51,025 nucleotides of DNA from NCBI GenBank assembly GCA_029567705.1, contig JAKPXC010000058.1, positions 1 to 51,025 of the forward strand. Reading direction: 5' to 3'. Positions 34,245 through 47,979 of the stretch are shown here, in pieces (positions within the stretch are counted from its first letter, which is position 1; the number at the start of each line of letters is the position of its first letter). Made by a program: the position numbers and the translations under genes. Below the pieces are notes generated by a model. The model saw nothing but the letters and a program-made list of their open reading frames with translations, searched no databases and was not told where the DNA came from. Origin of the DNA: Candidatus Cloacimonadota bacterium (GTDB lineage Bacteria; Cloacimonadota; Cloacimonadia; Cloacimonadales; Cloacimonadaceae).

Positions 34245-34326
34245 GACTCTTCACCGTGTCTTGCAGGACTCTTCCCGAACAAAGTGTTCGGGAAGAGTCG
34301 GCCAAGAGTCGACGAAGAGTCGGGGA
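34245..34326. repeat. 11-bp-periodic palindromic element, copy B
   Basis: GACTCTTCACC GTGTCTTGCAG GACTCTTCCCG AACAAAGTGTT CGGGAAGAGTC GGCCAAGAGTC GACGAAGAGTC, then GGGGA. Confidence 0.9.
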
Positions 34327-34421: not shown

Positions 34422-34438
34422 AGCGGGGACTGCTACCT

Positions 34439-34505
34439 TTGGAGTTCATGCCGGCTAGCTAACTTATACAATATCTCCAGACTACACAGCCGGCATGGAC
34501 TTCAA
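34439..34505 (+). repeat. Wobble-hairpin family, copy 1
   Basis: TTGGAGTTCA-TGCCGGCT ... AGCCGGCA-TGGACTTCAA (34439-34456 / 34488-34505). Confidence 0.8.
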
Positions 34506-34552
34506 GCATTGGGTGGTTAGCATGGACTGGATACTCTGCTTCGCCTCGCTCT

Positions 34553-34623
34553 GGTTGAAGTCCACGGCGGCACTGAGCTATGAGATGTATGGATAATTGA
34601 GAAAGTCGCCGTGAACTCCAACC
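34553..34623 (-). repeat. Wobble-hairpin family, copy 2 (minus orientation)
   Basis: On the minus strand: GGTTGGAGTTCA-CGGCG ... CGCCG-TGGACTTCAACC (34607-34623 / 34553-34569). Confidence 0.8.
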
Positions 34624-34753
34624 GGTGGAGCGGCAGCAGCGAAGCATTAACTCATTAACTATTCACTATAAACCCAGCTTCCCACTTTCTCATTGACAGC
34701 CAAAGCCTTCTCTGAAAGAATAGAAAATCAGTCTGAACTCATGAGGAGACGAA

Positions 34754-36193
34754 ATGAGCTTGTCCACGCAAGCCAAAGAGAAACTTGCCCGCTTCCTTGA
34801 GGAAGAGAAGATTATCTGCCGGGGAGACAAGATTATAGCTGCCTGTTCAGGCGGTGCTGATTCTGTTGCTCTGATCTATCTTTTGGGGCAAATGCGCTTC
34901 GATTTGAAGCTTAGTTTATTGGTCGTCCACATAGATCATCAGACCCGGCCGGAAGCCAATGAAGCGGAAGCGGAGCTGGTCAAGGAGATCTGCCGCCGGC
35001 TCAATGTAGCCCTCGTGATCCGTAAGATCAAGCCAGAACCCGGCCCCGGCTTTGAGAACCGTGCCCGGGATATGCGCTTTGCAGAGTTTGAGAAAATCCT
35101 GAGAATCTATAACTTCAACAAGCTCGCACTAGGGCATCACAAGAACGATCAGGCTGAGACCGTGCTCATGAACCTGATGCGTGGCTCCGGGATTGGCGGT
35201 ATGGGCGGTATCAAGCCGAGTTCTGCTCCAGTGATTCATCCCCTGCTCTGTTTCCGGAAGCAGGAACTGATTGAGCTGCTGCGCTCGGAGAATCTTCCCT
35301 GGGCTGAAGACGCCTCAAATAGCGATATAAGCCTGAGACGCAATTACCTAAGAAACCGGATCATTCCCCTGCTGGAGGAGAACGTTCATCCTTCCGTTGT
35401 AGAAAAGATCTCATTGCAGGCTGCCATCAGCCGGGAAGCCGAGACCTTTTTTCGCGAACAGGCCAAGCAGCGCTTCAAACGCCTCTGCACAGATCAGAGC
35501 CCAACCCGTATCGTCCTGAACCTCAAAGGGCTGAGCAACCTCAGTTCTATAGAGCAGTTTTACACGCTACGCCGGGCATACAGCCTGCTTAGTGGTACAG
35601 AACAGGATTTTTATTGGCATAGTCTTACGGATATCCAGGCACTATACGGCAGCGATGGCAGCAAAGAGAGTGCACTACAAAAGGGTATCCGGGTGGAACG
35701 GCGTTATGAGGAACTTTATCTCTACACACCGCAGGATTCTCTGGCTGTTCCTCCGCCGGAAGCGGTGACCGTGGAGGAAGACCGCTCCCGTGCCGTTTGG
35801 GGCAACATGCGGTTTAGTTTTAAGCATATCAAGGTCTTACCAAAGCATGAAGAATATGGAAAGCACTGCATTTATCTGGATGCGGAGAAGGTGGTCTTTC
35901 CCATCATTATCCGCAGCCGGGAAGAAGGAGATCGCTTCATTCCCAAAGGCATGCAGAATTTCAAGAAGCTGAAGGACTTTTTTATTGACGAAAAAGTAGC
36001 AAAAAATGAGAGGGATAGGATGGCTATAGTCTGCGATAGTGAAAAAATCCTCTGGATCGCCGGGATGAGAATGGATCAGAGAGCCTGCCCCGGTCCGGAA
36101 AGCAGCCGCTATCTGCAGATACATCTCGAATCTATGGACGAGAAGCCAAACCGGGCTGCCAACAGACTTAAAAAACAGGGAGATAACGAATGA
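34754..36193 (+). CDS. tilS: tRNA(Ile)-lysidine synthetase
   Basis: PP-loop SGGADSVALIYLL; HHKNDQAETVLMNLMRGSGIGGMGGI; C-terminal TilS domain. Confidence 0.95.
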   Translation: MSLSTQAKEKLARFLEEEKIICRGDKIIAACSGGADSVALIYLLGQMRFDLKLSLLVVHIDHQTRPEANEAEAELVKEICRRLNVALVIRKIKPEPGPGFENRARDMRFAEFEKILRIYNFNKLALGHHKNDQAETVLMNLMRGSGIGGMGGIKPSSAPVIHPLLCFRKQELIELLRSENLPWAEDASNSDISLRRNYLRNRIIPLLEENVHPSVVEKISLQAAISREAETFFREQAKQRFKRLCTDQSPTRIVLNLKGLSNLSSIEQFYTLRRAYSLLSGTEQDFYWHSLTDIQALYGSDGSKESALQKGIRVERRYEELYLYTPQDSLAVPPPEAVTVEEDRSRAVWGNMRFSFKHIKVLPKHEEYGKHCIYLDAEKVVFPIIIRSREEGDRFIPKGMQNFKKLKDFFIDEKVAKNERDRMAIVCDSEKILWIAGMRMDQRACPGPESSRYLQIHLESMDEKPNRAANRLKKQGDNE

Positions 36194-36735
36194 ACTCTAT
36201 GAATTGTGATATATCTGCTGTACTTTTTGACGAGTATAAAATACAAACCCGAATCAGGGAGATTGGATGCCAAATCTCGGCTGAATATGCCGGAAAAGTG
36301 CCCGTCTTTGTGGGAATTCTCAAAGGCGGTTTCATCTTTTTGAGTGATCTGGTGCGCAGCATCTCTATTCCGCTGGAGCTGGATTTTCTGGCTGTTTCCA
36401 GCTATGGAGCGGGAACCATTAGCACCGGAACGGTCAAGATCCAGAAGGACATCGAGATAGATCTCACCGGCAGAGATGTGATCATTGTGGAAGACATAGT
36501 GGATAGTGGATTGACCCTCCAGTATATCCGCGGTTATCTGGAAAAGCACAATCCCTCCTCTGTGAAAATCTGTGTGCTGCTGGATAAGCCGGAAGCACAT
36601 AAGATAGATGTGAGTTACGACTTTGTCGGCTTCAATATCGGCAACGAGTTTGTGGTGGGTTATGGCTTGGATTTTGCCGAGCGTTACCGTAACCTGCCCT
36701 ATATTGGAATCTTGAAAGAAGAGCTATATTCATGA
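36190..36735 (+). CDS. hpt: Hypoxanthine phosphoribosyltransferase
   Basis: PRPP-binding 'VIIVEDIVDSGLTL'; VGFNIGNEFVVGYGLDFAERYRNLPYIGIL. Confidence 0.95.
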   Translation: MNSMNCDISAVLFDEYKIQTRIREIGCQISAEYAGKVPVFVGILKGGFIFLSDLVRSISIPLELDFLAVSSYGAGTISTGTVKIQKDIEIDLTGRDVIIVEDIVDSGLTLQYIRGYLEKHNPSSVKICVLLDKPEAHKIDVSYDFVGFNIGNEFVVGYGLDFAERYRNLPYIGILKEELYS

Positions 36736-38945
36736 AAGTTAAATACATAATGCTAGTCCTGATCTGCCTGGGCATAAACCTGGCATGGGCAGTGGCGGAC
36801 AGCAGTTCCGGCACTCAGCCGGATCCCGGGGAGATACTCAAAACCGACCCGTTTGGTCAGTTTCAGTATGTTGTGCGTGGTATAATTATCACCATCCTGG
36901 GTATATCATTGATCAGTCTGTTCAGGATATTTATGATAAGAAAACAGAACAAGAAAAACGATAAACCGGGAGCCAATCCCGGGCAAGGCCCCCAGAAAGC
37001 GCCTCAAAACCCGCCTCCCAAGAGATCGCAGCTTTCTCTCACCATGGTCTTTTTGATCCTGATGATCTCGGTAGTGGTCTATCACGTGATGACCCGTTCT
37101 ACCGAGCAGATCACCAAGGCTCCGTATAATCTCTTTCAAAGGCAGGTGGCTCTGGGAGACGTCGCTGCGGTGCAATTCTCTGAAAAGGATATCTATTACA
37201 CGGATCAATCCGGTAAAAAATATGTAACCGTGATGCCCTTTGAGGATCCCCGTCTGGTGGATTCTCTGGTGGTGAAAGATGCCACTGTAACGGTGATCAA
37301 GCCATCCCGCTGGGCTGGCATTCTCTCCTATTTCTTCCCCTTTATCCTGCTGATCGGCTTTTGGTGGTTCTTTATGCGGGGCATGAACTCGCAGAACAAC
37401 AAGGCGTTCAGCTTTGGCAAAAGCAAAGCCAAGCTGCACGAAGCCACCAAGAGCAGGGTTACTTTTAAAGATGTAGCCGGAGTGGACGAAGCCAAGGAAG
37501 AGCTGCAGGAGATTGTGGAATTCCTCAAAGACCCCAAGAAGTTCCAGCGCCTGGGCGGCAGAATCCCGCGGGGCGTGCTGCTGGTGGGACGTCCCGGAAC
37601 AGGTAAGACTCTTCTGGCCAAAGCTGTGTCCGGAGAAGCCGGCGTGCCATTCTTTTCCATCTCCGGTTCGGACTTTGTGGAAATGTTTGTGGGTGTGGGC
37701 GCAGCCCGCGTGAGAGACCTCTTTGATCAGGCCAAGAAACACTCTCCGTGTATTACTTTTATCGACGAGATTGATGCGGTGGGACGTCACCGCGGCACTG
37801 GTCTGGGCGGTGGACACGATGAGCGTGAGCAGACTTTGAACCAGCTCCTGGTGGAGATGGATGGCTTTGAACCCAATGAAGCCGTGATCATTATCGCTGC
37901 TACAAACCGTCCGGACATCCTCGATCCGGCGCTCTTGCGTCCCGGGCGTTTTGACCGGCAGGTAACGGTTGATCTTCCCGATATCAAAGGCAGAACCGAG
38001 ATTCTCAAGGTTCACGCCGCCAAGGTTCCTCTGGCGGAAAACGTTGCCCTGGAACTGATTGCCCGTGGCACTCCCGGTTTCAGCGGTGCTGATCTGGCCA
38101 ATATCGTCAATGAAGCAGCTTTGATAGCAGCTTCTCATAACAAGAAAGCCATCGAAATGAGCGATTTTGAAGAGGCTAAAGACAAGCTGACTCTGGGTAA
38201 AGAAAAGAAAAGCCGGGTGATTCCGGAAGAAGACAAGAAGATCACAGCCTATCATGAGATTGGGCATGTGCTGACCTCAATTTTTCAGGATAAAACCGAG
38301 CCTGTGCACAAGGTCTCCATTATTCCCAGAGGCTTTACAGGGGGGGCTACTCACTATCTGATGAGCGATAAGACCGGCTATTCCCGCAGTTATCTGAACC
38401 AGCTTCTGGTGACCATGATGGGTGGCAGGGCTGCCGAAGAGATTGTCTTCAATGAGCTTACCACCGGAGCCGGGAACGATATCGAACGGATCTCGGATAT
38501 TGCCAAGAAGATGGTTTGTTCCTGGGGTATGAGTGACCAAGTGGGACCCATGACCCTTGGTAAGGAACAAAGCGAAGTCTTTCTGGGTAAAGATTTGGGC
38601 AGCCGGGACGTTCACAGCAATGAAACCGCTCTCCTGATAGATTCTGAAATCCGTAAGATCATCACAGATGCCCATGATAAAGCTCTGCAGATCCTGAGGG
38701 ATCACTCCGCTCTGCTGGATGTGATGGCCAAAGCTCTGCTGGATAAGGAAACTATGGGAACGGATGATATCTTTGAGCTCATCCTGGAGAACATCTCCGA
38801 GGAAGAGAAGAGCTTGGTGCAAGCCAAGTTTGACCGGGCCAGGGAAATGCGTTTTGACTATGCGGATGCTCCTGTGGAAGGCTCCTCCGTGCAAGATGCA
38901 GAGGCAGGAGATTCCACAGAAGAATCCACACTTGGGAGAGCTTGA
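36732..38945 (+). CDS. ftsH: ATP-dependent zinc metalloprotease FtsH
   Basis: Walker [12 protein letters not shown], 'HEIGH' zinc motif ([10 protein letters not shown]), two N-terminal TM segments. Confidence 0.96.
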
Positions 38946-38965
38946 GCCCGTCTCAGACAGAGAAG

Positions 38966-40291
38966 ATGAGTAGCAATCTGAAGAATATGTTCCGCGCTTT
39001 GACGGTGAGAAACTACCGCCTCTTCTTTGCGGGACAGGGAATATCTCTGATCGGCACATGGATACAGAGAACCACCATGGGCTGGTTTGTTTACCGGCTC
39101 ACGGATTCTGTGTTTCTGTTGGGCTTGATCAGTTTCCTTTCCATGATTCCCTCCATCTTCGTCAGTCCCTTTGCCGGCACTTGGGCAGATCGCTGGAACC
39201 GTCATAAGATCATCATAGGCACGCAGATCGCTTTCTGCATTCAAACCTCACTGCTGGCTATCTTTGTGCTCACGGGGGTCATCAGCTCTTCCAGAATCTG
39301 GATTCTGATGCTTCTGGCCTTGGCGCAGGGACTTATAGAAGGCGTCGATGCGCCTATCCGGCAATCCTTTGTTATCGATCTGGTGCAGGTAAAAAGCATG
39401 GTGCCCAATGCTATTGCGATGAACTCTGCTATGTTCAATGCTGCCCGCCTGGTGGGCCCTGCTCTGGGTGGCTTCCTGATCCAGGCTTTTGGGGAGGCTA
39501 TCTGCTTCTCTATTAATGCAGTGTCCTATATTGCCGTGATCGCTATGCTCTTTATGATGCGGATACATTACGAGAGACAGGCACCCACTCAGGAATCTAC
39601 CATTCGCAAGATTGTGGAAGGCTGGCGCTACGCCTGGCACCAGTTCCCCATACGTATTCTGGTGGCGAATCTGGCGGTCTATACGATGTTTGGCATGTCT
39701 TATGCCACGCTTCTGCCGGTCTTTGCCAGAGATATTCTGAAGGGAAGCTCCAGCACTTTGGGCTTGATGCTGTCCACTGCCGGAATTGGAGCTCTGATAG
39801 GTTCCTTCTTCCTGGCCTCGCGCACCACCATACGTGGAATTGCCAACCGGATGCTTTGGATTGGAATGGCAGTAAGTTGCACTCTGGTGGTCTTTTCCTT
39901 TAGCAACAGCATCTATGTCAACCTGCCTCTGATGGTTATCATTGGCTTTGGTATGATGATGCAGATGGCTTCCACAAACACTCTGATTCAATCTGTGGTG
40001 GAAGACAAAATGCGGGGAAGGGTGCTGAGCATCTACACCATGGCTTTCACGGCAGTAACGCCTTTTGGTAGCCTGCTAGTGGGAAGCCTCTCCAGTGAGT
40101 TTGGAGTGCAATGGGCTATGGCAGCCTGTGCTCTGATCTGTTTCTTCTGGTCTCTGAGCGGTTTCTCCATCCTGAGCAAGTTCAGCCGGGCTGTGCTGCG
40201 GATGCTGATCAGAGCAGAGAATCAGGAAATCTATCGTCCGCGTCAGGTACGTCTGAGCCTCAAACCAGGAGTTGTGAATGAAAGTATTTAA
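38966..40291 (+). CDS. MFS transporter (EntS/MFS_3-like)
   Basis: 12-TM pattern; 'NYRLFFAGQGISLIGTWIQRTTMGWFVYRLTDS'. ATG 38966 preferred to TTG 38942. Confidence 0.88.
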   Translation: MSSNLKNMFRALTVRNYRLFFAGQGISLIGTWIQRTTMGWFVYRLTDSVFLLGLISFLSMIPSIFVSPFAGTWADRWNRHKIIIGTQIAFCIQTSLLAIFVLTGVISSSRIWILMLLALAQGLIEGVDAPIRQSFVIDLVQVKSMVPNAIAMNSAMFNAARLVGPALGGFLIQAFGEAICFSINAVSYIAVIAMLFMMRIHYERQAPTQESTIRKIVEGWRYAWHQFPIRILVANLAVYTMFGMSYATLLPVFARDILKGSSSTLGLMLSTAGIGALIGSFFLASRTTIRGIANRMLWIGMAVSCTLVVFSFSNSIYVNLPLMVIIGFGMMMQMASTNTLIQSVVEDKMRGRVLSIYTMAFTAVTPFGSLLVGSLSSEFGVQWAMAACALICFFWSLSGFSILSKFSRAVLRMLIRAENQEIYRPRQVRLSLKPGVVNESI

Positions 40292-40964
40292 ATACATAGG
40301 TGATGCCTCCTTGGATTACCGGGGAATCATGAAGCGGCACTCCGACCTGCAGATCGGAAACCTGATAATTCCCAGAGATAGCCTGGTGATAGCCGAACAG
40401 ACACACTCAAAGCTGGTGCATAACTGCCTCCCGGAAGACGGCGGTTCCGGCTTCGCAGAGCACCCTCAGATCAAAGAAGCCGATGGCCTTATCACCAATA
40501 TCCCGGGACAGTTCCTGTTGATCCGGACGGCAGACTGCAGCCCTATCCTCATTTGGGATGAGACTCAGATGGTTGTCTGCGCCTTGCACAGCGGCAGGGA
40601 AGGAACCCGCAGAAACATCGCAGAACAGGCCATACATCAGCTTATCCACGACTATTCCTGTAAGGTGGAAAACCTGAAGGCAGTAATTGGCCCGGGTATC
40701 TGCGAAGATCACTACGAAGTAAGCCCGGGTATCTATGAAGATTTCATCACCAGCATGGAAAGAGAGGGCAACCAGCCGGTCAGTGGCAGCTACCGTCACC
40801 TGGCTATTCAGGCCACTATCCGTATGCAATTACTGAAGGCCGGGATCCAAGCTACAGAGATCGAGTACCGGACAGTCTGTACCTATGAATCACCCGTGCA
40901 CTTCTCTTTTCGCCGGGATGGCACCCACAACCGCCAGATAAACGTTATTGGGATCGTGTTATGA
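40278..40964 (+). CDS. pgeF: YfiH/PgeF family multicopper polyphenol oxidase-like (purine nucleoside phosphorylase) protein
   Basis: 'LIRTADCSPILIWD', 'CALHSGREGTRRNI', 'IGPGICEDHYEVSPGIYEDF'. Confidence 0.88.
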   Translation: MKVFKYIGDASLDYRGIMKRHSDLQIGNLIIPRDSLVIAEQTHSKLVHNCLPEDGGSGFAEHPQIKEADGLITNIPGQFLLIRTADCSPILIWDETQMVVCALHSGREGTRRNIAEQAIHQLIHDYSCKVENLKAVIGPGICEDHYEVSPGIYEDFITSMEREGNQPVSGSYRHLAIQATIRMQLLKAGIQATEIEYRTVCTYESPVHFSFRRDGTHNRQINVIGIVL

Positions 40965-42295
40965 CACAAGTTTATGAAAGTCCAAGTGGTATAGTTAAGC
41001 TGGAGATACGTGACGAAGGCATGTCTGCCTGGATCACGATAAACAGCCATAAAGGCCTGATCAGCGAACGGGAGATTCTGGAGCTGATCGACCGAGCAGG
41101 AATCAAGAGTGGCTTTGAAGACGCCCAGCGCTATATCCGGGAAGAGAATCTGGAGAAGGATTTTGACACCGCTTTCCCGGTGGCTTTATGCCAGAGGGGC
41201 AATGCCGGCACCAAGCTGAACTACTATTTTGATATTCACAAGAACCGCAAGCTCTCACCCGCCCTGGATCCCGCCCTTCTGCCGGGCTTGGAATATGTGG
41301 AAGCGGGCACCATCGTGGCCGATTACTCCAGCAATCTCTTTGACCGTAAGGGCTCCATCTACAATATCTTTGGAGAGATTATCCCCAATCCCGAGATCGA
41401 TCCCGGTGTATCCGGTGCCATAGCAGGCCCCGGCATCAGCTTTGATCCCTCCCGGAATGCCTTTGTTGCAGAGAGCACCGGTTATCCCTTCCTGGATGAA
41501 GAATGCAAGATTTGTCTATTAGACAGCATCATTCTGGGCTCAGAACTGCGGGAATACCACTATCCCATGCATATCCCCGTCGATATGATCTACCAGGGAG
41601 ATTTGGATAATGCAGAGATCTACTGCCACGGAGCAGTTCAAATCAACGGCTCGGTCAAGAATAGCCTCCTGCACAGTAGCGGAGAGCTGGACATCAGCGG
41701 AGAGCTGATTGAATCCCAGGTGCGTTGTGAACAAAGCCTGAAGGTCGGCACTATCCGCAATTGCAGCCGACCCATTCTGGTGCTGGCAGACCTGAAGTGC
41801 CAATCCATCCTGGAGAGTTCCGTGCTCTGCCAGGGAAAGATCGAGCTGGAGCGCCTCATCAACCGCAGCGTGGTGGTGGCCGATGGCGGCCTCACCGGCG
41901 GCCTCGAAAGCTGCATCCAGGATTCCCATCTCCAAGCCTGTGCTTCCATCGAGGCCGGAAATCTGGGCAGAGTGGATGGAGAAGCCAATGAACTCGAGAT
42001 CACTATCAGTCCCTTCAACAAAGCTGTCCTCACCCGCCTCACCAAAGAACTGATCAAGCATAAAGAGCAGGGCAACGGCTCCAGCGAGGAAGCGCAGAAG
42101 ATACAGGAAGAGATCAAAGCCTGCGAGCAGCAGCTTGACCAACAACTAAACAAGTTTCTTCGCCGCAACCGGGGAGAAAGATATAGAATACATATTCACG
42201 GAGACGTTCATCCTCCCACAGAAATACGCATCCTGAAACACAGCTACACCATCTCAAGCTACCAAAACTCACTGCTACTGGAAGAAAAGGACTAA
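40961..42295 (+). CDS. FapA/DUF342 family protein
   Basis: 'RKGSIYNIFGEIIPNPEIDPG', right-handed beta-helix-like middle, C-terminal coiled coil. Confidence 0.75.
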   Translation: MTQVYESPSGIVKLEIRDEGMSAWITINSHKGLISEREILELIDRAGIKSGFEDAQRYIREENLEKDFDTAFPVALCQRGNAGTKLNYYFDIHKNRKLSPALDPALLPGLEYVEAGTIVADYSSNLFDRKGSIYNIFGEIIPNPEIDPGVSGAIAGPGISFDPSRNAFVAESTGYPFLDEECKICLLDSIILGSELREYHYPMHIPVDMIYQGDLDNAEIYCHGAVQINGSVKNSLLHSSGELDISGELIESQVRCEQSLKVGTIRNCSRPILVLADLKCQSILESSVLCQGKIELERLINRSVVVADGGLTGGLESCIQDSHLQACASIEAGNLGRVDGEANELEITISPFNKAVLTRLTKELIKHKEQGNGSSEEAQKIQEEIKACEQQLDQQLNKFLRRNRGERYRIHIHGDVHPPTEIRILKHSYTISSYQNSLLLEEKD

Positions 42296-42297
42296 TA

Positions 42298-45200
42298 ATG
42301 GAGAGTGTAATGACAAAGAAGCTGACCCTGATTATCGGCCTCATGCTATGCTTTGCCGGCATCTATGCGCTAGGTCCGGGCTTTTCTAAAGATCCAGCTC
42401 CCTCACCGGATGGATCTCAGATCTGTTTTGTTTATGACAATGACCTCTGGCTGGTACCTTTTACGGGCGGAAACGCCGTCCGACTCACCAATACCGAAGC
42501 CTCTGAATGGTCTCCCATCTGGTCTCCTGACGGCAGCAGTATCGCCTTCAATTCCAATCGAGAAGGCTTCACCGGGATCTACACCATCTCTCCCCGGGGA
42601 GGTAGCTCCCAACTGATCTTCCCGGATAGATACTCCGTGGTGGAATGGTTTGCCGACGGACAGAATCTTTTGGTAGCCAGGCAAAGCTTCGAGCTGGGAA
42701 CAGGCTTTTACAAGCTTCCCTTAAACGGAGAGCGTCCCACCCTTCTGGCCGAGATTGGCGACAGCTTTGCCAGCCTCTCTCCGGATAACCGCAAGATCAT
42801 CTTCAACCGCTATGGCGATCCCTTCCGTGAAGCCTATCGCGGCAGCCTCAATGGCGATCTCTGGGAGCTTGATCTGGCCAGCGGAAACTACACCCGCCTC
42901 ACCAATACGCCTACCACAGAACGCTATGTGTGCCATTCCTACACCGGTAACAACGTCTATTTCTGTGCCTCAGACGGCAGTAAATACCAGATTATGAGAG
43001 TCCGGAACGGCAATTTCAGCCAGCCGGAACAGCTCAGCAACTTCGATTACTGGTCGGCTCGGGATATCAAGATTGCCCGCCGTTCAGACCGTATGACCTA
43101 TGAATTCTTCAATGAAATCTGGGCTTATGATCCCGCCCGGGCGGGTAGGGAACCCGGCTCAGGTTGCTTTAAAGTGGAGATCAACATCCTGGAAGACCAG
43201 TGGCAAAACCCCCGCCGCACCAGCACTATGAACGACGACTTTGATACCTTTGCCGTTAGTTCCGATCACCTCCTGGTGGGCTTCAACTATATGTACGACC
43301 TCTTTGCCATCCCCCGTAAAGGCGGTGATGCCAAGCAGCTTAGTTTCGATATGAATGGAGTTTCAGACCTCCTCTTTCTCAAAGACAATCGCACTATCCT
43401 GATGACACGCACCCAGAAAGGTGAAGACAAGCTCTTTAGTGTGACAATGGATTCCGTAGCTACCGAGATTAAGCCGGTCGATTGGTTCGGAGCCGATAGC
43501 ATGACGGTGGAGCGTGTTTATAGAGATGATAGCGGCCTGATCGTCTTGATCTACCGTGATCGGCTCAAAGGCGGCAACATAGCCTGGACAGACGATGAGC
43601 TTGCTGAGTTTCACACTATCCCCACCCCTTATGCGACCAGTTCAAACGTTGCCTTCAGCCCAGATAAAAGCTTTGCAGCCTTTGCTGTGGTGCGGGACGA
43701 TATCTGGACCCGTGAACTATATCTCTATGATATCCACAATAACGAACTGATCAAGCTCCTGAACGACGACCGGTGGATTGGCTCCATCTATTGGACTCCC
43801 GATAGCCGTTCACTCCTGATGAGCCGCGGAGGAGACATCTTCCGTCTGGATCTGGTGCCACGGGATGAACTGGAATACGACAAGAATCACTGGAACGAGA
43901 TTCTTCGCTACACTGAGGAAACAGATCAGGTAAACTATGATAGGGAGGATGGCTCCTACTACGAACCCCAGATCCCCGACAGCCTGGCTGCAACCACCCA
44001 ACCTATCACAGAACCGGTGGAACCAGAAGTGACAGAAGCACCTGTGACTCCCGAGACCCAGCCCGAAGCCCCGGCTCCTGTATCCCAAGTCAAGCTGGTG
44101 AGGGAAAATCTGCGTGAACGCCTCTACCCCGTGATCAGCCATCCTTCGAACGGCCTGAATGCGGTTCATGTAGAAAGTGACAGCGTGTTCTACTACATCT
44201 CCTACCCCTCCGATCGTTCCGGAAACACCGAGATTTTCAAGATCAATATCTATGGTAATAACAATCGGCAGGAAACCAGCCTGGGCTCCGGTATTGGTGA
44301 AGCGATAAAAGTCGATACCACCATCTATTACAGCCAGAACCATCAGCTCAAATCCTACAATCTGGAATCCGGCACCCGACGGGAGATCAAGGCCACCTTA
44401 GATTATGAGTATGACATCAACCTCCTCAATCGCCGGGTCTTTGAACAGGTCTGGGCAGCTTTCGGCTTGAACTTCTACGATCTTAACATGCACGGGCAGG
44501 ATTGGAACGCTGCCTTTGAGCGTTATGCTCCCTATCTGGAAAACGTCCGCAACACCAATGATCTGGAATCCATCATCGATGAGATGATCGGAGACGTCAA
44601 TGCCTCCCACACAGGCTTCTATCCCCGCCAGGATAAAACCTATCCTTACCGCAGCCAAGCCTATCTGGGCTTGGAATTCGATTATTCGGAGCGTCTTCCC
44701 GAGGGAGTAAAGGTGCGCTACGTTTATCCCGGCACCCGTCTGAGCTATTTATACAGCCTCCGTCCCGGAGAGATAATAACCCACATAGACAATCACCGGA
44801 TCAGCTCCCGCAGTCCTCTGGATTCTCTTCTGATAGATAAGATCGGCAAGCCCATCCATCTTACGGTGCAAAGAGATAGCACCAGCGTTGAGATGATCGT
44901 CAACGGTCTCTCCTGGAGCCAGAGCCGTGAACTCTGGTATCAGGATAGGGTTGAGCAGACTAAAAACAAGGTGAACGAAGCCTCCGGCGGCCGTCTGGGC
45001 TATGTGCATATCCCTTCCATGGGAAGTGAGGACTGGACTAATTTCCAGCGCGACCTCTTTCGTGATAATGCCGATAAGGAAGCGCTCATCATCGACGTTC
45101 GCGGCAATACCGGCGGCAGAATTCACGACCAGATTATCAGCCTGCTGATCAAAACTCCCTACGGTTATTCCACCTCCCGGAGATACAGCCGGGAAAAACG

Positions 45201-45555
45201 CTTTGAACCCAGCCGCATCTGGGCCAAGCCCTCCATCGTGCTGGTGGACGAGCATTCCTTCTCCGATGGCGAGATCTTCCCCATTATCTATCAAGAACTT
45301 AAGCTTGGAAAAGTGGTTGGCTTCCCCTCCAGCGGGGCTGTGATCGGCACCTGGGAATACGACCTGATCGATGGCTCCTCCATGCGCATGCCCTCCACCG
45401 GTTGGTACAAGCTGGATGGCACCAATATGGAAGGAACCGGTGCCCAACCGGATATCGTGATCGAACACACACCCAACGATCTGGTAAAACGCAACGATCT
45501 TCAGCTTCAGCGAGCCATTGAGGAATTGCTGGGAGAACTGGAATCCGGAGAATAG
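42298..45555 (+). CDS. Tricorn-like S41 protease with beta-propeller and PDZ domains
   Basis: N-terminal WD40/TolB-like repeats (DPAPSPDGSQICFVYDNDLW...); C-terminal DVRGNTGGRIHDQIISLL and VDEHSFSDGEIFP. ATG 42310 also possible. Confidence 0.85.
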   Translation: MESVMTKKLTLIIGLMLCFAGIYALGPGFSKDPAPSPDGSQICFVYDNDLWLVPFTGGNAVRLTNTEASEWSPIWSPDGSSIAFNSNREGFTGIYTISPRGGSSQLIFPDRYSVVEWFADGQNLLVARQSFELGTGFYKLPLNGERPTLLAEIGDSFASLSPDNRKIIFNRYGDPFREAYRGSLNGDLWELDLASGNYTRLTNTPTTERYVCHSYTGNNVYFCASDGSKYQIMRVRNGNFSQPEQLSNFDYWSARDIKIARRSDRMTYEFFNEIWAYDPARAGREPGSGCFKVEINILEDQWQNPRRTSTMNDDFDTFAVSSDHLLVGFNYMYDLFAIPRKGGDAKQLSFDMNGVSDLLFLKDNRTILMTRTQKGEDKLFSVTMDSVATEIKPVDWFGADSMTVERVYRDDSGLIVLIYRDRLKGGNIAWTDDELAEFHTIPTPYATSSNVAFSPDKSFAAFAVVRDDIWTRELYLYDIHNNELIKLLNDDRWIGSIYWTPDSRSLLMSRGGDIFRLDLVPRDELEYDKNHWNEILRYTEETDQVNYDREDGSYYEPQIPDSLAATTQPITEPVEPEVTEAPVTPETQPEAPAPVSQVKLVRENLRERLYPVISHPSNGLNAVHVESDSVFYYISYPSDRSGNTEIFKINIYGNNNRQETSLGSGIGEAIKVDTTIYYSQNHQLKSYNLESGTRREIKATLDYEYDINLLNRRVFEQVWAAFGLNFYDLNMHGQDWNAAFERYAPYLENVRNTNDLESIIDEMIGDVNASHTGFYPRQDKTYPYRSQAYLGLEFDYSERLPEGVKVRYVYPGTRLSYLYSLRPGEIITHIDNHRISSRSPLDSLLIDKIGKPIHLTVQRDSTSVEMIVNGLSWSQSRELWYQDRVEQTKNKVNEASGGRLGYVHIPSMGSEDWTNFQRDLFRDNADKEALIIDVRGNTGGRIHDQIISLLIKTPYGYSTSRRYSREKRFEPSRIWAKPSIVLVDEHSFSDGEIFPIIYQELKLGKVVGFPSSGAVIGTWEYDLIDGSSMRMPSTGWYKLDGTNMEGTGAQPDIVIEHTPNDLVKRNDLQLQRAIEELLGELESGE

Positions 45556-45561
45556 ATTGCC

Positions 45562-46440
45562 ATGACCGCTACCGAACTCAATAATCTGCTGCTTAGAGTC
45601 GAGATCCTGGCCAGATCAAACTGGATTCATGCCATGCACTTGCTTTGCGAAGCCGAAGACCTCTATCCCCAGGATCCCCGCATTCCCGCAACCCGCGGGC
45701 TGATCTACTTTGAGAATCACAACTACAAGGAAGCCTCAAAGTCTTATCAGAGAGCTTATGAACTGGGTTCGCGGGATATCCAGGTGCTCTATATGCTGGG
45801 AAATTCCTATTTCGTGCAGGGGGAATTCCGTCTGGCTCTGATTTACTACAACCAGATCACCAACCAATCTGTAGAACTCTGTTACAACAAAGCTTTGGCG
45901 CTTTCCAATCTGGGCAGAGTGGGCGAAAGCATCAAGCTACTCCAGGAAGCTCTGCATAGTTTTCCGCCTCAGATCTATGTGTATATCATGCTGGCAGATC
46001 AGTATATCCGCCTCAATGACATTGATCAGGCCCTCAAGACAGTGCAGGATGCCGAGAAACGCCTGGGTCCCAGCCCCGGTCTCTATGCCCTCAAAGGCAC
46101 AATCTATGCCAAACAGAAGAATTGGCTCCAGAGCTATGCCGCCTTCCGTAAGGCAGATAGCGGTAAGTTCGCCATATTTCCGGATCATTTTGGCCTCTAT
46201 GCCAATGCTGCGGCAATGTCCGGCTTCATCGATGAAGCTATTGAGCTCTTCGAACACGCCCTGGTCTATATGCCATATTCGGAAACAATTTATGAAGATT
46301 ACTGCCGGGCTGTGCTGGAAAACGGCAGGGAAGATCTGGCCAAAAAGATCATCAGCCGCGCCCGCAAGCACCTTCTGCAGCTCAGCCCCGCTTTACGCCT
46401 GATGCAACAGAGGATTAGCCCCAGCAGACCAAAGCCATGA
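45562..46440 (+). CDS. TPR-repeat protein
   Basis: PATRGLIYFENHNYKEASKSYQRAYELG... and similar helical repeats. Confidence 0.8.
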   Translation: MTATELNNLLLRVEILARSNWIHAMHLLCEAEDLYPQDPRIPATRGLIYFENHNYKEASKSYQRAYELGSRDIQVLYMLGNSYFVQGEFRLALIYYNQITNQSVELCYNKALALSNLGRVGESIKLLQEALHSFPPQIYVYIMLADQYIRLNDIDQALKTVQDAEKRLGPSPGLYALKGTIYAKQKNWLQSYAAFRKADSGKFAIFPDHFGLYANAAAMSGFIDEAIELFEHALVYMPYSETIYEDYCRAVLENGREDLAKKIISRARKHLLQLSPALRLMQQRISPSRPKP

Positions 46441-47645
46441 TTCTGAAGCTCAAGAACCCGGTTCGTCCCTACCCCTGGGGTTCCCGCTCCTTCCTGCAGA
46501 ATTATCTGGGACTTCCCGAAGAGCTGGGCAAACCCCTGGCGGAGCTCTGGATCGGAGCCCATCCGCAGGCTTCTTCTGTGATCGAATCCAGCGGACAAAA
46601 CCTGGAAGAATACATCTCTTCAAATCCCCATCCCGCCCTCGGTAAAGCCAGGGAAATCAACCGGGATAAGCTGCCCTTCCTCTTCAAAGTCCTGGCCGTG
46701 GCAGAACCGCTTTCCATCCAGATTCATCCCAATAAAACCCAGGCTGAGGAAGGCTTCAAAAGAGAAAACCAAGCTGGTATTGCCCTGGATGACCCCAAGC
46801 GTAACTACAAGGACGACAATCATAAACCCGAGCTGATCATAGCGCTTACGCCTTTCAAAGCACTTTGCGGTCTGAGAAAATACAACCAGATCATCAGCTT
46901 TGGCACGGCTCTGGGCTGGGGTAAGTATATGCCTTTGTGGGAGAGCTTTGCGAGCTCCGGATCCAAGCAGGAATTTCAAGCTTGGTTCCTGAGCCTGATG
47001 GATGCTGAAGCCCGGCTTCTTGCAGAGCTTATCAGCCACATAGATAAAGTTCTGGATAAAGCCGGGATCATTCCCCATGAGGTAAAAGCCCTTTTCCGCT
47101 CCCTGCGTCTGCGTTATCCACTGGATCTGGGCTTGCTCTTCCCCTTCCTGCTCAATCTGGTGAACTTATCTCCCGGCCAAGCCATCTTCTTGGAAGCAGG
47201 AATCCTGCATGCCTACCTGGAAGGCAATGGACTGGAACTAATGGCCAGTTCGGACAATGTGATTCGTGCCGGACTGACTCCCAAACACATAGATATTGAA
47301 GAGTTTAAGCGGGTTTGCCGCTTTGAGCCTTTCTCCCCAGAGCTCCTGGAAGCCAAAGTTCCCTCCGGCTCCAAAAGACCCCGCCTCAAAGCTTTCGCCA
47401 CAGATGTACAGGACTTTCGTCTGCAATTGCTGGAACTGGCAGAACATGAAAGCATCACTCTTGATCCACAGGGACTTCCCACTCTGCTCTTCTGTCTGGA
47501 GGGGAACCTGCGCTTTGCTGATGAAGGGGTACTGGACGACACTTCCTACGGAAAAACCTCAACGTTCTTTGTCACTGCCAACCAAAAGCCCTTTGATTTG
47601 CTGGGACCATGTAAGCTGGCGCTGGTGGATGTTCCGCTACAGTGA
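46437..47645 (+). CDS. manA: Mannose-6-phosphate isomerase, class I
   Basis: 'PLSIQIHPNKTQAEEGF', 'DDNHKPELIIALTPFKALCG', 'EAGILHAYLEGNGLELMASSDNVIRAGLTPKHID'. Confidence 0.93.
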   Translation: MILKLKNPVRPYPWGSRSFLQNYLGLPEELGKPLAELWIGAHPQASSVIESSGQNLEEYISSNPHPALGKAREINRDKLPFLFKVLAVAEPLSIQIHPNKTQAEEGFKRENQAGIALDDPKRNYKDDNHKPELIIALTPFKALCGLRKYNQIISFGTALGWGKYMPLWESFASSGSKQEFQAWFLSLMDAEARLLAELISHIDKVLDKAGIIPHEVKALFRSLRLRYPLDLGLLFPFLLNLVNLSPGQAIFLEAGILHAYLEGNGLELMASSDNVIRAGLTPKHIDIEEFKRVCRFEPFSPELLEAKVPSGSKRPRLKAFATDVQDFRLQLLELAEHESITLDPQGLPTLLFCLEGNLRFADEGVLDDTSYGKTSTFFVTANQKPFDLLGPCKLALVDVPLQ

Positions 47646-47708
47646 ACAGTGATCAGTGAACAGTGAACAGAAAGTGACGAGTGACGAGTAACAAGTAACG
47701 AGAGCTGC
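47641..47708 (+). repeat. Heptamer AGTRAYN tract ending in AGAGCTGC
   Basis: AGTGAAC AGTGATC AGTGAAC AGTGAAC AGAAAGTGACG AGTGACG AGTAACA AGTAACG AGAGCTGC. Confidence 0.9.
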
Positions 47709-47719
47709 TTCGCTCCTCC

Positions 47720-47789
47720 GGTTGGAGTTCAAGAGGGCTTCGAGTCTATGACTTTAGATCTGCACTAGATGCCCTCTGGGACTTCAACC
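47720..47789 (+). repeat. Wobble-hairpin family, copy 3
   Basis: GGTTGGAGTTCA-AGAGGGC (47720-47738) ... GCCCTCT-GGGACTTCAACC (47771-47789). Confidence 0.85.
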
Positions 47790-47979
47790 AGCAAGTGGCG
47801 AAGCGGAGCTTTTCTACTAAGCTGGCACCCACTGTTAATGGTTAGTAGCTAATGAGTTAATGCTCCTCAAACCGATTTCGGATTTTAAGCGTCCTCGTCT
47901 GCACGGGCTCGGAGAGTCCGAAGTATTTACCGAGATATTCCTAGAACCCATAGAGTACTGTGTACTCAGCCTTACATGT

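Follow-up and report, generated by a model that had tools for sequence, protein, structure and literature searches.

A tag-less, long-loop hairpin family of probable REP/BIME type in Cloacimonadota and the RAYT transposase clade associated with it

The window analysed here, a 51,025 nt stretch of DNA from a Candidatus Cloacimonadota bacterium (contig JAKPXC010000058.1 of assembly GCA_029567705.1), carries three copies of a hairpin-forming repeat that is dispersed in the same genome and in related genomes. The repeats are best read as a real family under selection, a variant of the repetitive extragenic palindromes (REP) and bacterial interspersed mosaic elements (BIME) that has a long loop, lacks the usual tag and is served by a clade of REP-associated tyrosine transposases (RAYT). 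We consider it likely that these hairpins are non-autonomous single-stranded DNA (ssDNA) elements and are, or were in the past, the substrate of this clade of TnpA_REP-type Y1/HUH enzymes.

Copies, covariation and wobble pairs of the hairpin

The initial annotation had located the three copies in the window correctly, with copy 1 extending to 34437-34507. They were scored with a covariance model built from 17 hairpin copies of the window's own genome. The hairpins and the segments belonging to them are:

34437..34507, + strand: hairpin copy 1, 73.8 bits (covariance model)
34508..34552, no strand: linker between copies 1 and 2, the 3′ sides of the two hairpins facing each other
34553..34623, - strand: hairpin copy 2, 74.9 bits (covariance model)
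34437..34623, no strand: head-to-head pair of copies 1 and 2 with differing inner stems, similar to a BIME or to a REP doublet forming hairpins (REPIN)
47720..47789, + strand: hairpin copy 3, 69.5 bits, of the 70-nt subfamily
47790..47834, + strand: linker remnant after copy 3, with the end ...CACCCACTG

The inner stems are those first described, different in each copy yet complementary: TGCCGGCT/AGCCGGCA in copy 1 (TGCCGGC/GCCGGCA, enclosing a loop of ~33 nt), CGGCG/CGCCG in copy 2 and AGAGGGC/GCCCTCT in copy 3. The outer stem had been called conserved. This holds across the family, where TTGGAGTTCA/TGGACTTCAA is almost invariant, but less well in the window: the end base pairs of copy 1 (CTTTGGAGTTCA/TGGACTTCAAGC) are unlike those of copy 2 (GGTTGGAGTTCA/TGGACTTCAACC) and copy 3, and the latter has a single broken pair (A.G) at the junction of the outer and inner stems. 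The wobbles of copy 1 are G34442.T34502 and T34446.G34498. When folded as ssDNA on the strand listed above, each window copy formed a much more stable structure than dinucleotide shuffles (z = -3.8 to -4.9), and folding was poorer on the opposite strand.

Searching the window's genome (a Cloacimonadota bin, 2.48 Mb assembly) with the covariance model detected 34 distinct hairpins (E <= 1.7e-4), and 24 of them are arranged as 12 head-to-head pairs. Sixteen of 20 own-genome loci checked fall outside open frames of 120 or more codons; the hairpin is thus, like REPs and BIMEs, a multi-copy palindromic repeat between genes. It is present in 27 of the 50 genomes of the family, with up to 49 matches per genome, and in none of 48 genomes from other families of the order. 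In an exact-pattern scan of public genomes all matches listed were from Candidatus Cloacimonadota. The genomes searched are fragmented bins, in which genes flanked by repeats are easily lost from the assemblies. Altogether, 237 distinct hairpins were gathered from all fetched loci.

The whole stem comprises 17-19 bp and the loop, only weakly conserved, mostly 31-33 nt. The inner stem (~7 bp) is hypervariable, with 126 distinct combinations, yet remains 90-97% paired per position. The covariation score of the 17 own-genome copies was above all 500 shuffles. The same was true of 38 diverse copies (0.428 vs 0.124 shuffled, and <=0.115 with the arms slid), in which 91.8% of the cells were paired and 111 cells showed double changes (35.1 in shuffled sets). 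With any base allowed at the two wobble positions, 182 of 187 distinct copies had exactly one G.T and one T.G there, a fraction somewhat favoured by the recruitment of some loci with patterns containing these letters. Because a G.T wobble turns into an A.C mismatch on the complementary strand, these positions would mark the strand; the wobble-bearing strand had the more stable ssDNA fold in 226 of 236 copies. The strand asymmetry of the wobbles, described originally from three copies, thus holds family-wide, and the proposed selection on a folded single strand is supported by covariation and near-invariant wobbles.

The flanks shared by copies 2 and 3 (GCTTCGCT...) characterise one subfamily of the window's genome, but no flanking base was conserved over 232 hairpins, and the additional outer stem that the flanks had been suggested to form is not supported as a general feature.

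Three other interpretations of the repeat were rejected. A coding origin was suggested by a YxYIS codon-like loop in the own-genome copies; 37 of 90 71-mers have a stop in frame, about as many as expected for an unselected loop of 11 codons. A short palindrome in each arm (TTG-GASTT-CAA) as the true unit is contradicted by the mutual information of positions 3-13 (0.07 vs 0.70 and 0.98 for inner pairs of the long stem), and a search for this type near RAYTs from other families showed weak enrichment only. Integron attC sites have the core boxes 5′-RYYYAAC...GTTRRRY-3′; in the hairpins the polarity is reversed, the 5′ arm starting with GTT and the 3′ arm ending with AAC.

Head-to-head pairs

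Adjacent hairpins were in '+-' arrangement in 119 of 135 pairs and in other arrangements in 16, counted over all fetched loci, where one place may recur in overlapping loci. The paired elements are 150-190 bp long and gene-free, with the hairpins opposed; single, unpaired hairpins also occur. In none of 89 distinct pairs did the two hairpins share an inner stem. When partners were shuffled within genomes, ~10 such pairs were expected, and none of 5000 shuffles was as low. Since the arms of the two hairpins are mutually complementary without wobbles, a whole pair can alternatively form a single long hairpin, a perfect palindrome that would be weakened by inner stems that differ. The lack of same-stem pairs may in part also reflect the origin of each subfamily from one heterodimer.

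In the window the pair of copies 1 and 2 is intergenic, with a PHP-domain gene on one side and tilS on the other. Copy 3 has no partner hairpin and lies directly downstream of a phosphomannose isomerase gene. The linker remnant beside it stops at the point where complete pairs (cf. L030, L013) enter the second hairpin, which is missing.

Other repeats are found near the hairpins. A second near-perfect palindrome (GACTCTTCCCGAACAAAGTGTTCGGGAAGAGTC), unrelated to the family and followed by GAAGAGTCGGGGACA repeats, lies at 34265-34325 of the window, and hairpins at L037 and L050 have similar stretches (GAAGAGTCGGGG) in their flanks. Several own-genome copies are adjoined by short direct repeats of the AGTGAACAGTGATCAGTGAACAG and GAGCTGCTTCGCTCC type (window 47640-47715, also L011 and L013).

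RAYT genes flanked by the hairpins

The initial annotation had proposed looking for a RAYT or IS200-like Y1 transposase with a matching substrate. A RAYT clade flanked by these hairpins, which supports the proposal, was found in relatives and not in the window's own genome. Y1 loci were fetched and a tree of 77 proteins was built. Y1 transposase genes occur in 37 of the 50 family genomes, and the presence of any Y1 gene does not predict hairpins: such genes are also found in genomes free of hairpins and are absent from some that carry them. Only one RAYT subclade associates. RAYT genes with hairpins, or close versions of them, on both sides were found at L221, L224 (G025), L239 (G021), L245 and L246 (G006), the gene at L221 being frameshifted. 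All five sit in one clade of 11 rows (support 100/100). Both-sided flanking was observed for 5 of the 6 RAYTs of the subclade and for 0 of 71 other Y1 genes (Fisher P = 3e-7, a value that overstates independence because the rows share ancestry).

Hairpin sequence varies together with the transposase. The sixth member of the subclade, L233, has hairpins of GGAGTCATTCAGCCCC type on its flanks, with loops of 31 nt. Non-canonical pairs occur at comparable places in the hairpins of L239, L245, L246 and L233, but they are not the same pairs. In the sister subclade, the hairpins at L248 and L225 are of like architecture but other sequence (GTTTTGACTTAAAA...), with precisely one G.T and one T.G spaced four base pairs apart. 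Hairpins of this kind were not recovered at L257, L110 and L242. In genome G047 a truncated RAYT of the clade (the remnant at L299) starts ~30 nt downstream of two hairpins, as would fit a transposase that was lost while its hairpins stayed.

The clade proteins show several characteristics of RAYTs (class 2 TnpA_Y1 proteins). All 11 contain the HUH motif NH[YF]H and the tyrosine motif YIH-NP, and all match Y1_Tnp. They also match the model of the REP-associated tyrosine transposase, NF047646 (11/11, best E 1e-17), although the one score listed, 54.7 bits, is under the cut-off of 80. In a PDB search with the clade the sole match was TnpA_REP (4er8, E = 5.8e-6). In the weak alignment to 4er8 the residues with which E. 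coli TnpA_REP contacts GTAG (W94, Q95, E100, H101) appear replaced, which would fit the missing tag.

Several further observations were made at Y1 loci. Three RAYT-like genes belonging to other clades are present in the window's genome (L022, L023 and L024 on G000 contigs C103, C161 and C196), with no such hairpin nearby. At L097 (G045, 700-2400) an IS200-like Y1 gene is flanked on both sides by another repeat family (CTTAAAAGACGAAAGGTGGGGGTTTTAACCCCCAC, CTTTCAAGGC units), and hairpins of the family studied here lie upstream of it. Around the RAYT of G021 the hairpins are overlapped by three palindromes (AAGGACTACACACGTCA/TGCCGTGTGTAGTCCTT) that are nearly identical and have gaps of 32 nt (L239 1336-1401, 2237-2302 and 2513-2578). 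Clade RAYTs in other Cloacimonadota families (L301-L322) are often flanked by direct repeats (e.g. CTTGACTTAAG, AACTTGAATTAAGTT), possibly other hairpin types.

Relation to known elements and rival explanations

REP/BIME elements and their RAYTs (Nunvar 2010, PMC2817692; Corneloup 2021, PMC8266576) resemble the Cloacimonadota system in the dispersed imperfect palindromes forming inverted pairs, in the conserved non-canonical stem positions, in the RAYT gene flanked on both sides and in the joint change of RAYT and hairpin. Unlike them, the Cloacimonadota hairpins are without a GT(A/G)G tag and have a hypervariable inner stem. With REPINs (Bertels and Rainey 2011, PMC3116915) they share a spacer with compensatory changes between conserved ends, doublets as the (here presumed) mobile unit and a possible alternative long fold; here, however, a single hairpin makes up the 70-nt unit, with the pair as a second level, and the element ends are not stable small hairpins by themselves. 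As in the GTAG-/CGTC-tagged palindromes (Di Nocera 2013, PMC3733652), head-to-head dimers predominate, and many of those families prefer heterodimers, but the hairpins described here fit neither the tag nor the size of such palindromes (stem 5-13 bp, loop 2-20 nt; PMC3733652, Table 1). RAYT-like genes of subclass 2.6 TnpA_Y1, found mostly in Bacteroidetes, are flanked by genome-recurrent atypical structures without GT[AG]G (Quentin 2018, PMC6006769), a situation that, by its description, may resemble the one seen here. An IS200/IS605 element has same-strand subterminal hairpins at both ends of a mobile gene, in contrast to the opposed hairpins and gene-free elements seen here.

RNA helices typically show covariation and G.U wobbles, and most own-genome copies lie outside long open frames, as would be expected if selection acted on an RNA fold and the hairpins were structured RNAs or mRNA-level elements (stabilisers, attenuators, small RNAs). 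We consider this improbable. No Rfam family matched in the window, and the hairpins behave as a dispersed repeat that flanks RAYT genes. Moreover, ssDNA is favoured over RNA because in a head-to-head pair, the predominant arrangement, each strand, and hence any transcript, holds one wobble hairpin and one with A.C mismatches. A secondary effect of the hairpins at the RNA level is possible.

The inverted-repeat ends of the pairs and the limited flanks common to subfamily copies recall miniature inverted-repeat transposable elements (MITEs), in which the GTTTGGAGTTCA pair ends would be terminal inverted repeats cut as double-stranded DNA by the transposase of a classical DDE transposon. Cutting of a duplex leaves the free but paired inner stem and the fixed wobbles unexplained, single hairpins occur, no target duplication was evident by eye in the flanks, and the flanked Y1 genes are RAYTs (no systematic search for DDE transposase genes was made), all of which makes a MITE origin very unlikely. 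Equally unlikely is that the copies are relics spread by recombination or replication slippage beside which RAYTs lie by chance. Many hairpin genomes do lack a clade RAYT, and some copies lie near the unrelated IS200-like gene at L097 or another RAYT type (L226), but the both-sided flanking confined to the subclade and the parallel change of hairpin and RAYT between subclades are hard to obtain incidentally.

Several observations weigh against the hairpins being RAYT substrates of REP/BIME type. The tags of described REPs are absent: GTRG was found within 12 nt of the 5′ foot in 4 of 231 copies, under the background of 19/231, and the CGTC foot tag in 1 of 231; stem and loop are both longer than in described REP families. 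For hairpins of the exact TTGGAGTTCA type, an adjoining RAYT is limited to G025 and, in remnant form, G047. No RAYT of the 11-row clade was found in the window's own assembly, and most hairpin-bearing genomes are without one, although fragmented bins easily lose repeat-flanked genes. The own-genome copies are probably relics or dependent on a RAYT missing from the assembly; the gene may have been lost or left unassembled. Of 125 genomes examined in the phylum, 51 have clade proteins, and no hairpins of long-loop architecture were found at clade RAYTs in other families, so that this architecture seems to have arisen within the window's family. Finally, in an empty-site test at tilS in two congeners the gene order differed and synteny was lost, and no empty site or target duplication was demonstrated.

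Our preferred interpretation remains that of ssDNA hairpins served by the RAYT clade, and we infer from it that the enzyme recognises the hairpin, chooses the strand, cleaves and mobilises it. A strand would become single-stranded, e.g. at the replication fork, and the wobble-bearing strand would fold into the 17-19 bp stem with its 31-33 nt loop. The RAYT would then recognise the conserved outer stem with its two non-canonical pairs, which could distinguish the right strand from its complement. E. coli TnpA_REP requires two conserved mismatches in the REP stem and processes REP but not its complement (PMC8266576); by analogy, the fixed wobbles probably do the same job. After cleavage the element would be copied, mostly as head-to-head pairs. 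The inner stem, constrained by pairing alone, would drift through compensatory change, and its difference within every pair would weaken the long perfect palindrome. More tentatively, and with less confidence than doubt, we suggest that the RAYT reads mainly geometry, i.e. two non-canonical pairs at set positions of the foot and no guide tetranucleotide. Subclades could then come to differ in stem sequence without any shift of the wobble positions, and the inner stem would serve as a free label that has to differ within pairs.

The described REP systems are mostly from Proteobacteria and rest on the GTAG tag. Here, in an uncultured phylum, the tag is absent, and two wobbles persist as the sequence around them changes in step with the transposase. 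The lack of same-stem pairs puts a count on the heterodimer preference that was left without obvious explanation in Di Nocera 2013 (PMC3733652). How a RAYT tells DNA strands apart without a guide sequence is testable in this family.

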